From: Candidatus Zhuqueibacterota bacterium | GTDB taxonomy: Bacteria; SM23-31 | DNA: 5,030 nt | Assembly: GCA_022562855.1 (NCBI GenBank) | Contig: JADFON010000190.1 | Coordinates: forward strand, 1 to 5,030 | Direction of reading: 5' to 3' | In this document: in pieces, positions 121 through 4,773 of the stretch | Position numbering within the stretch: position 1 is the first letter of the stretch | How the letters are laid out: every line of letters starts with the position of its first letter | Translations under genes and position numbers: made by a program | Notes under the pieces: model-generated | What the model was told of the DNA's origin: nothing | Seen by the model: only the letters and a program-made list of their open reading frames with translations | Databases searched by the model: none

Positions 121-154
121 CTAAAAAACAAAAAAACAGACAATATGTCTGTTT
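121..154 (-). terminator. Rho-independent terminator of the minus-strand operon
   Basis: A perfect 9-bp inverted repeat (arms 134-142 and 146-154, 3-base loop) is followed on the minus strand by a long T-rich tract interrupted by one G (133 down to 122). The stem is AT-rich at its base with a CAGACA/TGTCTG core. It lies about 140 bases beyond the stop codon of the carboxyltransferase gene and no gene intervenes, so it is the natural end of the four-gene transcript. A hairpin followed by a T tract is the bacterial intrinsic terminator layout. On the plus strand the stem is preceded by an A-rich tract but lacks a good T run after it, so it would act mainly in one direction. Confidence 0.75.
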
Positions 155-191
155 CTCAAATTTTATCAATTCATTTGGGCGGCATTTCATC

Positions 192-294: not shown

Positions 295-1902
295 TTACAT
301 CCTGAACACGCCGAATTTATGTTCGGGTATGGGTGCGTTGAGGGACATCGATATCCCGAGGGCGAGTACGTTTCGAGTGTCGACCGGGTCGATGATGCCG
401 TCGTCCCACAAACGCGCGGTGCTGTAATATGCGCTGCTTTCCTCTTTATACTTATCAAGCACCGGCTGTCTGATCTTATCGATTTCCTTTTTTGATAATT
501 TCTTCCCTTTAGCCTTGAATTGGTCGATTTTTATCCTCTCGAGTACATCCGCTGCCTGTTCGCCGCCCATAACGGATATCTTCGCCGTGGGCCACATCCA
601 CAGAAGCCGAGGAAAATATCCCCTGCCGCACATCGCATAATTTCCTGCGCCGTGCGATGCTCCGACAATAACCGTAAATTTCGGAACCTGAGCAGTTGCA
701 ACGGCATGAACCATTTTTGCACCGTCACTCGCAATCGCTCCATGTTCGTATTCTTTGCCGACGATAAAACCGGTAATATTCTGCAAGAATACAAGAGGGA
801 TTTTCCGTACCGAACACATCGAGACAAAATGGGCGCCTTTTTTGGCGCTTTCCGAAAATATCACACCGTTATTGCCCACAATGCCGACCGGGTAACCCAT
901 GATATTTGCATACCCGGTTACAAGCGTAGTTCCGTAATTTTGTTTAAATTCATGAAACCGGCTCCCGTCTACTATCCGCGCAATAATTTCACGAATATCA
1001 AACGGTTTCCGGAAGTCTTTCGAGACAATACCGTAAAGCTCTTGCGGGTCGTATCGGGGTTCCTCAACTGTTTTCATTGCAAGTTCAAATTTTCGCGGGG
1101 TGTTGCAACATTCTATAATATTACGCGCTATTTCAAGAGCATGTTTGTCATCGACGGCGTAATGATCGCTGACGCCAGATATCCGGGTATGTACGTCCGC
1201 GCCTCCAAGCTCCTCAGGCGTCACGTCGGCTCCTGTTGCCGCCTTTACAAGCGGAGGTCCACCGATAAAAATGGTCCCGGTGTCCTTGACGATTATTGTC
1301 TCATCGCTCATAGCAGGAACATAAGCCCCGCCTGCGGTACAAGAACCCATGACAATCGAAATTTGGGGAATGCCTTCAGCCGAAAGACGCGCCTGGTTAT
1401 AAAATATCCTGCCGAAATGTTCCTTGTCGGGAAATACGCCGTCCTGAAGCGGTAAGAACACACCACCGGAATCGACAAGATAAATGCAGGGAAGACGATT
1501 TTCGAGGGCGATTTCCTGCGCCCGGACATGTTTTAAAACGGTGATTGGAAAATAAGTCCCGCCTTTTACCGTGGCGTCGTTCACCACGATAAGGACTTCC
1601 CGCCCGTGTACAACGCCTACGCCTGTTATGATTCCGGCGCAAGGCGCTGAATCGTCATACATTCCGTTTGAGGCAAGAGTGGAAAATTCAAGAAAAGGGG
1701 TGTTTTTGTCAAAAAGGAGATTCAGGCGGTCTCTTGCAAGGAGTTTTCCGCGCCCGGTGTGCCGTTTGCGGGATTCCTCCGGACCTCCTGCCTTTGCGCT
1801 GTCAAAGCGCGTTCTGAACTCGGCAAGACGTTCCTGGTAAAAGGCGTGATTTTCCTTAAATTCCGGGGAGCGTGGATTGATATTCGTTTCTAATCGGTAC
1901 AC
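295..1902 (-). CDS. mccB: Methylcrotonyl-CoA carboxylase-type carboxyltransferase (beta) subunit
   Basis: This 535-residue protein transfers the carboxyl group from carboxybiotin to an acyl-CoA, most likely 3-methylcrotonyl-CoA to 3-methylglutaconyl-CoA (leucine/isovalerate pathway, cytoplasmic). Two crotonase-like carboxyltransferase domains are seen (about 25-290 and 295-530). The first has [10 protein letters not shown] (108-117), the [14 protein letters not shown] stretch (157-170) and the oxyanion-hole glycines of [17 protein letters not shown] (185-201). The second has LQNITGF (373-379), [16 protein letters not shown] (414-429) and [17 protein letters not shown] (435-451). These are typical of MCC/geranyl-CoA carboxylase beta chains rather than propionyl-CoA carboxylase. 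Length and the FGVFRM end match Pseudomonas LiuB as I recall it. The start is GTG: an in-frame TAA lies three codons upstream, and the N-terminal INPRSPEF matches the family. No clear Shine-Dalgarno site precedes it. It follows the DUF35 gene by 24 bases, the same operon. No alpha (biotin) subunit is in the window. Substrate choice is inferred; geranyl-CoA or another branched enoyl-CoA remains possible. Confidence 0.93.
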
Positions 1903-1926
1903 GTATTTTTAGCCCGATAAAATTTT

Positions 1927-2319
1927 CTACGTGGGAACGCATTTGTAACCGTAACAGATAATTCCGGCGTCACCCACTTCATAAATTTTTCGGAATTCGA
2001 TCCGCACCTTTGTACCTGCTTTCAGATCATCAGGATCACAATCAGCAATCATCGACGTGATTCTGACACCGTCATTGAGTTCGACAATGGCAACTGCGTA
2101 GGGGACTAAATCCCGGAAATGCGCAGGGGCAACGTGAATGACGGTATAGGTAATGATCTTTCCCTCGGTTTCGAGGTTAACTTTTTCAAAGTTGCTTGAT
2201 TTTGTCGAAGGATTTACAAGACGCGGCGGGAAGAAAATTTCGCCGGTCTCTTTACATTTGTTTCCTTCGTACCTGTATCTTTGCGGGATTTCTCTCCAAT
2301 ATCGTGCAGGTGTGGACAT
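1927..2319 (-). CDS. DUF35 OB-fold protein, partner of thiolase and HMG-CoA synthase
   Basis: This 130-residue protein is the third member of the archaeal-type HMG-CoA synthase/thiolase cluster. In archaea the DUF35 protein holds thiolase and synthase together and helps form the shared CoA/acetoacetyl-CoA channel. Visible parts are an N-terminal helix with the family's YWREIPQRYRYEG (7-19), a zinc-ribbon-like segment (20-40), then a C-terminal OB-fold (about 45-128) ending GIICYGYKCVPT. The zinc ribbon is degenerate: of the expected CxxC...CPxC ligands only Cys22 remains, with Thr25, Asn36 and Thr39 at the other positions. FFPPR (29-33) is kept. The start at 2319 is chosen over an in-frame ATG at 2343 because GGAGG (2331-2327) lies 7 bases before it and because homologues begin near this point. 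The ATG overlaps the thiolase stop by one base (TAATG), so translation is probably coupled. Confidence 0.88.
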   Translation of the reverse strand: MSTPARYWREIPQRYRYEGNKCKETGEIFFPPRLVNPSTKSSNFEKVNLETEGKIITYTVIHVAPAHFRDLVPYAVAIVELNDGVRITSMIADCDPDDLKAGTKVRIEFRKIYEVGDAGIICYGYKCVPT

Positions 2320-3476
2320 TAGACTGCCTCCAATATCTGGCAAACGCCGCTTGCGCCGCTTCCGCCCATGTTTTGCGTCATACCGGTTCGAGCATTGTGC
2401 ACCTGTCTTTCCCCGGCTTGACCGCGCAGTTGTTCTACAATTTCAATTACCTGGGCAACTCCCGTGGCGCCGACAGGATGTCCCTTTGATTTCAGACCGC
2501 CGCTGGTGTTGACCGGAATTTCACCGCCAATCGCCGTGCGTCCCGTAGAAGCCATACAGCCGCCCTGACCTTTTTCTGCGAAACCGAGGGCTTCTACAAC
2601 GCAAATCTCCGCGATACTGAAACAATCGTGTACTTCGCACACATCGATGTCCTTCGGTTCTTTGCCAGCCATTTTATATGCCTGCATTCCGGCTATTTCA
2701 ACCACTTTAAGCCAGGAAGGGTCCTTACGGTGATGAAGCGCCAGGAAATCAGATGCTTGTCCTATCCCGGCGATTTTTACCGCCGGGTTGTTTTTGTAAT
2801 TCATTGCCATCTCAAGAGGGCAAACTATGACTGCGGCGGCGCCGTCGGTTATCGGCGAGCAGTCGAGAAGCCGGAGAGGGTCGCAGACCATTATAGAATT
2901 CAAAACCTGCTCCGTTGTCACTTCAAATTGGTACTGCGCGTTGGGATTTAGATTCCCATTATGATGATTTTTGACTGAAACGGCTGCCAACTGTTCTTGT
3001 GTTGTTCCGTATGTGTCCATATGCAGACGCGCAATCATTGCATACAGTCCCGGAAACGTGACGCCGTTATATACTTCGTATTCCTGGTCTGCCGCAGTGG
3101 CAAGAGCAGCAGTCGCATCATTGCCATCGACGTCGAGCATTTTCTCAACACCGCCCGCAAGAACGATATCGCTCATCCCGGAAGCAACTTCGATAAAAGC
3201 CTGCCGTACTGCCGCACCTCCTGAAGCACACGCCGACTCTATACGCGTCGAGGGAATCGGGGTGACGCCAAGATAATCCGCCATCAGCGCGCCTATGTGT
3301 TCCTGACCTACAAAAAGTCCGCTTGACATATTCCCTATATACATGGAATCGATATGATCTACGCCGGCGTCTTCGATGGCTTTTAAAGCGGCTTCAACAA
3401 AAATATCTCTCAGCGACTTTTCCCATAACTCCCCCCATTTATTCATGCCGACGCCGATTATCGCAACATCACGCAT
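2319..3476 (-). CDS. SCP2-type thiolase, probable acetoacetyl-CoA thiolase
   Basis: This 385-residue enzyme most likely condenses two acetyl-CoA to acetoacetyl-CoA, or cleaves acetoacetyl-CoA in the other direction. The nucleophilic cysteine is Cys83 in ESACASGG (80-87). The EVHDCF motif (281-286) takes the place of the NEAF motif of classical thiolases; it is the SCP2-thiolase/archaeal signature, in which its Cys285 is thought to act as acid/base. His333 lies in [14 protein letters not shown] (326-339). The C-terminal end, [14 protein letters not shown], lacks the CxG cysteine of classical thiolases, which agrees with that class. Length is normal. AGGAGG (3489-3484) sits 7 bases before the ATG. 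It is downstream of HMG-CoA synthase by 118 bases and overlaps the DUF35 gene by one base, the layout of the archaeal three-protein complex. A 3-oxoacyl-CoA thiolase with another chain substrate is the alternative; the neighbours favour acetoacetyl-CoA. Confidence 0.92.
2327..2331 (-). promoter_or_regulatory. Ribosome binding site deciding the DUF35 start
   Basis: GGAGG on the minus strand, inside the last codons of the thiolase gene, sits 7 bases before the ATG at 2319. This decides the start in favour of 2319 rather than the in-frame ATG at 2343. Confidence 0.75.
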
Positions 3477-3483
3477 TACACTG

Positions 3484-3489
3484 CCTCCT
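3484..3489 (-). promoter_or_regulatory. Ribosome binding site of the thiolase gene
   Basis: A perfect AGGAGG on the minus strand sits 7 bases before the ATG at 3476. The 15 bases from GGAGG to ATG match those before the DUF35 gene at all but one position. Confidence 0.8.
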
Positions 3490-3564
3490 GTAAATTCTCA
3501 TTATTGACACTGATTTATTATGATTATCACCGATAACAATTAAAGGATTTTAACAGCCGGAAGT

Positions 3565-3592
3565 GTGATAAACCGGTGAAAATCTGTGTCAA
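3565..3592 (-). promoter_or_regulatory. Candidate internal promoter before the thiolase gene
   Basis: On the minus strand a perfect TTGACA (3592-3587) and TATCAC (3570-3565, 4 of 6 consensus) are separated by 16 bases. The pair lies just after the HMG-CoA synthase stop codon, in the 118-base gap that is the only sizeable gap in the operon. It would start transcription near 3558 and let thiolase, DUF35 and carboxyltransferase be made apart from the synthase. The -10 box is only moderate and no experiment supports it. Confidence 0.3.
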
Positions 3593-3594
3593 GA

Positions 3595-4650
3595 TTATCT
3601 CTTGATTTTGCCCCTGTACTTGGCGTATTCTCCGTAACTCAGGTATTTTTTGTTTCCGTCAAGCATTGCCCTCGTCTGTACAGTCTTTTTCTGAGTTTCA
3701 ACGATATGGTCGGTTATTTTAAATACAAAACCGTCGCTTCCCGCCCCCGATCCATACGAGACCATAAAGATAAGATCACCCGGTTTAGCAATGTCGAGAA
3801 TAGCGGTCAATCCCATCGGCGACGCCCCTGAATAGGTGTTGCCCAGAGTCGGCGCCAGCCAGCCTGTGTCCATTTGTTCCTTTGTGAAACCAAGCGAAAG
3901 ACCGGCTCTCTGAGGAAATTTACCGTTCGGCTGATGAAAGACTGCAAATGCATAATCTTCCGGTTTGGTGCCGGATTTTTTCAAAAGACCTTTAGCGCAC
4001 GCGTTTACATGCTTGAAAAATGCGGGTTCACCGGTAAATCTTCCCGCATGCGAAGGATAGAACTGATGTTCACGCCTCCAGAAATCCGGTGTATCGGTCA
4101 TGTAGGCATAGGTTTCAAGGACTTCGGCAACGACCTTCTCTCCACCGAGGATAAAAGCCGCCGCCCCGGCTGACGCTGAATATTCGAGAGCGTCACTTGG
4201 ACAGCCCTGCGAAGTGTCCGCCCCGATTGCCAACCCGTACTTGATAGAGCCTGACCGCACTTGTTCAAGACAAACATACATACCTTCCGACCCGGCTTTG
4301 CAGGCAAACTCAAAATCGGCGCAGTGAATTTCCGGCGTAGCGTTTATCGCTTCCGCCACAACCGTCCCGCTTGGTTTAACTGCATAGGGATGAGATTCGG
4401 AACCGATATAAATCGCGCCAATATCTTTTGGGTTTATCCCACACCGTTTGATGGCATTCCGAGCCGCCTCTACCGACATAGTGATTACATCCTCGTCAGG
4501 TCCCGGCACCGATTTTTCACGGAGCATAAGCCCTTTTTCCATGCTTTTCGGATCTGCGCCCCAAACCTTGGCGATCTCTTCAATCGTTATCCGGTTACGC
4601 GGAATATACGACCCGTGACCGACTATCCCGACTTTACCATTATTCTTCAT
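3595..4650 (-). CDS. Hydroxymethylglutaryl-CoA synthase, archaeal type
   Basis: This 351-residue enzyme condenses acetyl-CoA with acetoacetyl-CoA to HMG-CoA, the committed entry to the mevalonate pathway; the reaction can also be considered in reverse. It has the thiolase-like fold of the KAS III/HMGS family. Catalytic residues are visible: Glu85 in GSESHPYAVKPS (83-94), nucleophile Cys117 in EFACKAG (114-120) and His239 in FHQPNGKFP (238-246). Archaeal-type signatures include VGIVGHGSYIPRNRI at the N-terminus, GADTSQGCPSDALEYSA (143-159), TDTPDFWRR (185-193), RFTGEPAFFKH (204-214) and GNTYSGASP (270-278). Length fits archaeal enzymes (about 345-350) and is shorter than the Firmicutes MvaS or eukaryotic forms. 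The ATG has a TGAGGT ribosome site 7 bases upstream. It is the first gene of the minus-strand operon. An archaeal origin of this type followed by transfer to bacteria is known in several lineages; whether that holds here needs a tree. Confidence 0.94.
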   Translation of the reverse strand: MKNNGKVGIVGHGSYIPRNRITIEEIAKVWGADPKSMEKGLMLREKSVPGPDEDVITMSVEAARNAIKRCGINPKDIGAIYIGSESHPYAVKPSGTVVAEAINATPEIHCADFEFACKAGSEGMYVCLEQVRSGSIKYGLAIGADTSQGCPSDALEYSASAGAAAFILGGEKVVAEVLETYAYMTDTPDFWRREHQFYPSHAGRFTGEPAFFKHVNACAKGLLKKSGTKPEDYAFAVFHQPNGKFPQRAGLSLGFTKEQMDTGWLAPTLGNTYSGASPMGLTAILDIAKPGDLIFMVSYGSGAGSDGFVFKITDHIVETQKKTVQTRAMLDGNKKYLSYGEYAKYRGKIKR

Positions 4651-4745: not shown

Positions 4746-4773
4746 ATTATAGTTTAGGAAAGAAATACGTAAA
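4746..4773 (-). promoter_or_regulatory. Candidate sigma70-like promoter of the HMG-CoA synthase operon
   Basis: On the minus strand TTTACG (4773-4768) and a perfect TATAAT (4751-4746) are separated by 16 bases. A second overlapping TATAAT follows at 4746-4741. Transcription would start near 4740 and give a leader of about 90 bases before the HMG-CoA synthase ATG. In AT-rich sequence such -10 boxes arise easily, so the call rests on position and spacing. If the host were an archaeon, TTTATAAA (4712-4705) would be the better TATA-box candidate. Confidence 0.4.

Follow-up and report, generated by a model that had tools for sequence, protein, structure and literature searches.

What does an archaeal-type set of genes for 3-hydroxy-3-methylglutaryl-CoA (HMG-CoA) metabolism do in a bacterium, side by side with a subunit of 3-methylcrotonyl-CoA carboxylase (MCC)? 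The question is raised by a stretch of 5,030 bases from Candidatus Zhuqueibacterota bacterium, here called the window, which is an entire contig (C197) of a source genome of 2.51 Mb in 491 contigs, 79.6% complete. An earlier note had read it as a three-gene archaeal cluster joined on one strand, with short gaps, to an MCC subunit, and had proposed either leucine/isovalerate oxidation with HMG-CoA synthase (HMGS) and thiolase working backwards or, in the opposite direction, synthesis of methylcrotonyl-/isovaleryl-CoA. The open reading frame (ORF) listing of the window does contain four ORFs at this place, all on the minus strand, and profile and Protein Data Bank (PDB) matches agree with the identities proposed:

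3595..4650, minus strand: archaeal-type HMGS, 351 aa (TIGR00748, 6esq chain I)
2319..3476, minus strand: acetoacetyl-CoA thiolase of the archaeal complex type, 385 aa (6esq chain A)
1927..2319, minus strand: DUF35 (OB-fold) scaffold subunit, 130 aa from ATG 2319 (6esq chain E)
295..1902, minus strand: MCC beta subunit (MCC-beta; carboxyltransferase), 535 aa (3u9r match)

The gaps are indeed short: 118 bases between HMGS and thiolase, -1 between thiolase and DUF35 (with the ATG start) and 24 between DUF35 and MCC-beta. We consider it probable that the last steps of leucine/isovalerate oxidation are encoded by this operon, with the HMGS/thiolase/DUF35 trio running in reverse; its direction, its substrate and the formation of a complex are what we infer from the evidence below.

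Each subunit of the trio finds its best solved-structure match in a chain of the archaeal complex (PDB 6esq/6et9), HMGS with 466 bits to chain I of 6esq, the thiolase with 387 bits to chain A and DUF35 with 105 bits to chain E. The same HMGS reaches 521 bits on TIGR00748, where the cut-off is 353. Its Cys117, His239 and Glu85, presumed to be catalytic, are invariant across relatives (alignment A1) and conserved in 6esq chain I. DUF35 likely starts at ATG 2319 rather than at TTG 2343 of the listed ORF, in which case the thiolase stop overlaps the DUF35 start as TAATG. As to the carboxyltransferase, its match to Pseudomonas MCC-beta 3u9r reaches 724 bits, against 435 bits to geranyl-CoA carboxylase beta and at most about 272 to beta subunits of methylmalonyl/propionyl type; judged by these scores, it is a true MCC-beta. 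The single top PDB match, 9tps (732 bits), was deposited under the name 'propionyl CoA carboxylase beta subunit' but groups by score with MCC-beta entries.

The zinc-ribbon Cys ligands are largely gone from the window DUF35 (KCKETG...VNPST). Such loss, with the gene kept, has occurred repeatedly in scattered lineages (the window, L032, L035, L043, L044, L046, L051, L058, L064 and L094); ligand loss was considered as a marker of MCC linkage and rejected, since the two do not track.

Could the neighbourhood be incidental, with trio and MCC-beta functionally unrelated? We compared 86 HMGS loci, 80 from a scan of 84,980 species genomes plus the window and five related genomes, their gene content being read by six-frame HMM scans; many of the compared genomes are incomplete, and genomes are not independent samples. 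HMGS-thiolase adjacency is nearly universal among these loci (median gap 17 bases). In 24 of the 86, the gene after DUF35 on the same strand is MCC-beta (median gap 126 bases), and in 21 a hydratase comes after MCC-beta (median gap 18 bases); the loci with DUF35 followed by MCC-beta usually run on into methylglutaconyl-CoA hydratase, biotin carboxylase (BC) and biotin carrier (BCCP). The hydratase of the linked clusters best matches gamma-carboxygeranoyl-CoA hydratase, of the AtuE/LiuC type, under its cut-off. MCC-linked loci occur in bins named Zixibacteria, Aminicenantes, WOR-3/Stahlbacteria, Cloacimonadota, Coatesbacteria, Acidobacteria and Deltaproteobacteria/Myxococcota, and the complete order HMGS-thiolase-DUF35-MCC-beta-hydratase-BC-BCCP in bins named Zixibacteria, Aminicenantes, WOR-3, Coatesbacteria and Deltaproteobacteria/Myxococcota. 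In the Bacteroidota locus L115, MCC-beta, hydratase, BC and BCCP lie upstream of HMGS and an acyl-CoA dehydrogenase lies downstream. None of the five archaeal HMGS loci has an MCC gene in its surroundings.

When the loci are labelled on the HMGS tree by 'MCC gene near HMGS', a label that counts any MCC-type gene within 9 kb and takes in a few clusters of propionyl-CoA carboxylase, 23 changes are needed, of which well-supported branches force at least 13; truncated contigs inflate the apparent losses. Hence, the HMGS-MCC association has been gained or lost many times. Moreover, the partner is not always the same enzyme: in G026 (locus L037) and in L102 the trio is joined to a carboxyltransferase resembling that of propionyl-CoA carboxylase (36% identical to the window MCC-beta in G026, where the hydratase exceeds the PRK07657 cut-off), and in the Planctomycetes locus L083 to a GcdA/MCC-like carboxyltransferase of 577 aa. 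Such pairing with different carboxyltransferases of putative substrate points to function rather than to shared descent of one operon. A chance neighbourhood could be argued from the two same-family genomes G001 and G002, in which the contiguous four-gene order is not seen, but the association turns up in many phyla and involves three types of carboxyltransferase, and by our own estimate the chance of two given genes lying within 10 kb in a 3 Mb genome is roughly 1%. The linkage that the earlier note proposed to look for in relatives is thus not incidental, and coincidence is scarcely credible as an explanation.

An AtuA-family protein (PF07287) adjoins the HMGS trio, and sometimes MCC, in L035, L044 (where the AtuA ferredoxin-like domain is also present), L062, L064, L085 and L090, and G030 combines MCC-beta and AtuA without archaeal HMGS and without a lyase over cut-off. 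As a universal partner AtuA was dropped, for it occurs in 11 of 61 genomes, that of the window not among them.

If the linkage has a function, which enzyme would otherwise consume HMG-CoA? HMG-CoA lyase (HMGL) was searched for with the NCBIfam model NF004283. None of the 37 genomes with linked HMGS-MCC genes has an HMGL of the MCC-operon type, whereas ordinary HMGL is found in four of seven genomes that have MCC-beta (at least 55% identity) without archaeal HMGS (0/37 vs 4/7, Fisher p = 0.0003). With all HMGL matches over cut-off, the comparison becomes 4/37 vs 4/7 (p = 0.014); both counts are given because the sorting into ordinary and CaiB-type lyases was made after seeing the matches, and both tests assume an independence that these genomes do not have. 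In G012 and G038, which are without archaeal HMGS, the lyase sits inside the MCC operon. Three complete chromosomes, L040, L053 and L078, carry the linked operon and gave no HMGL match over cut-off; in the complete chromosome L058, HMGS and MCC are far apart and the lyase homologue is of CaiB type. No HMGL over cut-off was found in the window's own genome (G000), as the oxidative proposal had anticipated, nor in G001 and G002. The one HMGL-like (PF00682) match of the window's genome was rejected as a lyase, being LeuA in an ilv/leu operon.

The HMGL matches over cut-off in seven of 55 genomes searched, all seven HMGS-bearing, were considered as counter-examples and set aside: six form one clade (support 100), in clusters with a CaiB-type CoA transferase distant from MCC, and the seventh, G099, has the sole ordinary lyase among them and an HMGS unlinked to MCC. 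The paralogue clade itself (L176, L177, L178, L179, L183, L185 and L186/L187) has as neighbours CaiB-type CoA transferase and mostly LeuC-like, LeuD-like and isocitrate/isopropylmalate-dehydrogenase-like genes; in G084 the paralogue is a split gene with the same CaiB-type neighbours and, unlike the rest, falls below the NCBIfam cut-off. These paralogues perhaps serve a CoA-dependent citramalate-type route, and those passing the HMG-CoA lyase cut-off are probably misnamed.

HMGS might instead work forward for mevalonate, with MCC and hydratase feeding leucine-derived HMG-CoA into the same isoprenoid/lipid pool, as in trypanosomatids; leucine does contribute to sterols in Trypanosoma brucei (PMC5993337). 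By gene content, however, most cluster-bearing genomes use the methylerythritol phosphate (MEP) route to isoprenoids without HMG-CoA reductase: IspG is present in 46 of the 55 genomes searched, and the reductase in eight, not being found in the other 47. Same-family G002 also has IspG, the reductase not being found. The window's own genome is less simple, since it contains a reductase homologue on contig C357 (346 bits to PF00368; 281 on the NADPH-type equivalog, under its cut-off of 442) and IspG was not found in its 80% complete assembly. Yet IspE was identified in it (171 bits, cut-off 139), and no match to mevalonate kinase reached the cut-off, the GHMP matches of this genome being IspE, a heptose-kinase-like protein and a ThrB fragment. 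The neighbours of the homologue are not mevalonate genes either: at L120 (C357, 5049-10303) it is the first gene of an operon that further encodes two acyltransferases of PlsC type, alkyl-dihydroxyacetonephosphate synthase (alkyl-DHAP synthase; 472 bits to 2uuu) and a short-chain dehydrogenase. This looks like a complete ether-lipid set, in which the homologue would occupy the slot expected for a fatty-alcohol-forming reductase. The search for a reductase suggested earlier thus favours the reversed trio in most operon genomes and less clearly in the genome that raised the question; overall, isoprenoid supply seems an unlikely role.

In the linked genomes, where no MCC-type lyase and usually no reductase was found, the trio is the only HMG-CoA-using enzyme identified. 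How could it work backwards? In the usual route, the lyase yields acetyl-CoA and free acetoacetate, whose re-activation costs a thioester. In the synthetic direction, HMGS pulls an unfavourable thiolase condensation, so that the summed reaction should be near balance and could run backwards. In the pathway that we propose, MCC would carboxylate 3-methylcrotonyl-CoA, a crotonase-type hydratase would then form HMG-CoA, and the reversed HMGS/thiolase/DUF35 complex would convert HMG-CoA, CoA being consumed and water released, to acetoacetyl-CoA and acetyl-CoA (HMG-CoA + CoA -> acetoacetyl-CoA + acetyl-CoA + H2O). Thiolysis of acetoacetyl-CoA would give three acetyl-CoA in all (net HMG-CoA + 2 CoA -> 3 acetyl-CoA), and the trio would stand in for both HMG-CoA lyase and acetoacetate activation. 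The reversal would be driven by the ATP-dependent carboxylase upstream, which sets the direction towards HMG-CoA, together with removal of acetyl-CoA.

The same enzymes could be imagined to build acetyl-CoA up, via HMG-CoA and methylglutaconyl-CoA, to methylcrotonyl-/isovaleryl-CoA for iso-branched lipids, with MCC as a decarboxylase. The archaeal HMGS/thiolase complex is known in the synthetic direction, myxobacteria make ether-type lipids from isovaleryl-CoA, and the window's genome has the ether-lipid operon just described. This second proposal of the earlier note is nonetheless disfavoured, and we hold it improbable, because the clusters encode BC and BCCP, that is an ATP-driven carboxylase, and a decarboxylating route needs neither; furthermore, other MCC operons hold the degradative HMG-CoA lyase in the place of the trio, and the window's genome encodes an ilv/leu route by which leucine precursors are made.

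The oxidative reading, which the lyase absence, the recurrent linkage and the prevalence of genomes with IspG but no reductase all support, needs to be qualified with respect to several observations that weigh against it. About half of the loci with archaeal-type HMGS have no MCC gene nearby, and the acyl-CoA dehydrogenases in or near the clusters are not assignable as isovaleryl-CoA dehydrogenase; the substrates of the two acyl-CoA dehydrogenases in the window's genome are likewise not assignable from sequence. In that genome the C357 homologue is a possible other sink for HMG-CoA, methylglutaconyl-CoA hydratase was not found (the best match, a general crotonase, has 157 bits vs 342 in G002) and neither was MCC-alpha, its one BC/BCCP pair (C85) being by context orthologous to the second pair of G002 and not to the MCC operon of the latter. 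An assembly 80% complete can explain the missing hydratase and MCC-alpha. Lastly, the four genes are not contiguous in the same-family genomes. Contig C137 of G002 carries MCC-beta (78% identical to that of the window), then hydratase, BC and BCCP; the HMGS-thiolase pair of G002 lies at the edge of another contig, and HMGL over cut-off was not found in this genome.

In G001 (L032; C127, 783-6794), HMGS and thiolase are about 3.7 kb apart with other genes between, and the thiolase frame ends at about 319 aa with the DUF35 match overlapping, which suggests damage to the thiolase C-terminus.

The remaining features of the window lie outside the four genes:

131..157, minus strand: terminator-like hairpin past the last gene, 12 pairs (3 G-C) with a T-run (scan; not above chance)
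4746..4773, minus strand: sigma-70-like promoter match TTTACG-16-TATAAT upstream of HMGS (scan; not above chance)

The hairpin at 157-131, with its T-run, does follow the last gene, but ten terminator-like sites in the window, compared with 7.4 +/- 2.6 in shuffles, make the terminator claimed to be common to the four genes only plausible. Beyond the 3' end of MCC-beta, where the view ends with the contig, the spacer is AT-rich except at positions 196-215, where there is a GC-rich and nearly perfect palindrome, GGGCACGGCACGCCGTGCCC.

Taken more broadly, and with slightly less assurance than for the operon of the window, we think it likely that a widespread bacterial variant of leucine/isovalerate oxidation exists, in which a reversed archaeal complex replaces both the lyase and the activation of acetoacetate; this variant would have come together on several occasions, with different carboxyltransferases, and would account for the retention of archaeal-type HMGS in many MEP bacteria. 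Such a variant is apparently real, conserved and undescribed: in the literature searched (open-licence papers only) we found no description of HMGS inside an MCC operon, and a 2026 review of bacterial isoprenoid routes (PMC13001223) is without mention of leucine. Genomes with the operon are probably credited with partial mevalonate synthesis, HMGS being annotated as an isoprenoid enzyme, and their leucine pathway is probably called incomplete for its missing HMG-CoA lyase. If true, the reversed complex would spare the thioester of acetoacetate activation, which is relevant to energy-limited anaerobes.

How does this arrangement compare with known systems? The yng cluster of Bacillus subtilis is assigned to leucine breakdown. 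G026 and L102 resemble it in carrying a propionyl-type carboxyltransferase, a crotonase-type hydratase (PRK07657-type in G026) and BC, but have the HMGS trio adjoining instead of the lyase YngG; yngE-yngJ are listed among sporulation genes (PMC517825). Bacterial liu-type operons and the isovalerate cluster of Desulfococcus multivorans, in which anaerobic isovalerate oxidation with a lyase is known (PMC5109826), share MCC-beta, hydratase, BC and carrier with the HMGS-linked clusters, from which HMG-CoA lyase is missing and where the trio takes its place. The myxobacterial route from HMG-CoA to isovaleryl-CoA similarly joins HMGS with methylglutaconyl-CoA and methylcrotonyl-CoA, but in the synthetic direction and with a dedicated decarboxylase, whereas HMGS-MCC clusters encode an ATP-dependent carboxylase. 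A further close relative is the archaeal thiolase/HMGS/DUF35 complex (PDB 6esq, 6et9), whose three chains are the best matches of three subunits encoded side by side; the trio described here, known from its genes, differs in sharing its cluster with MCC genes, in residing mostly in MEP-pathway bacteria and in the reversal that we propose for it.

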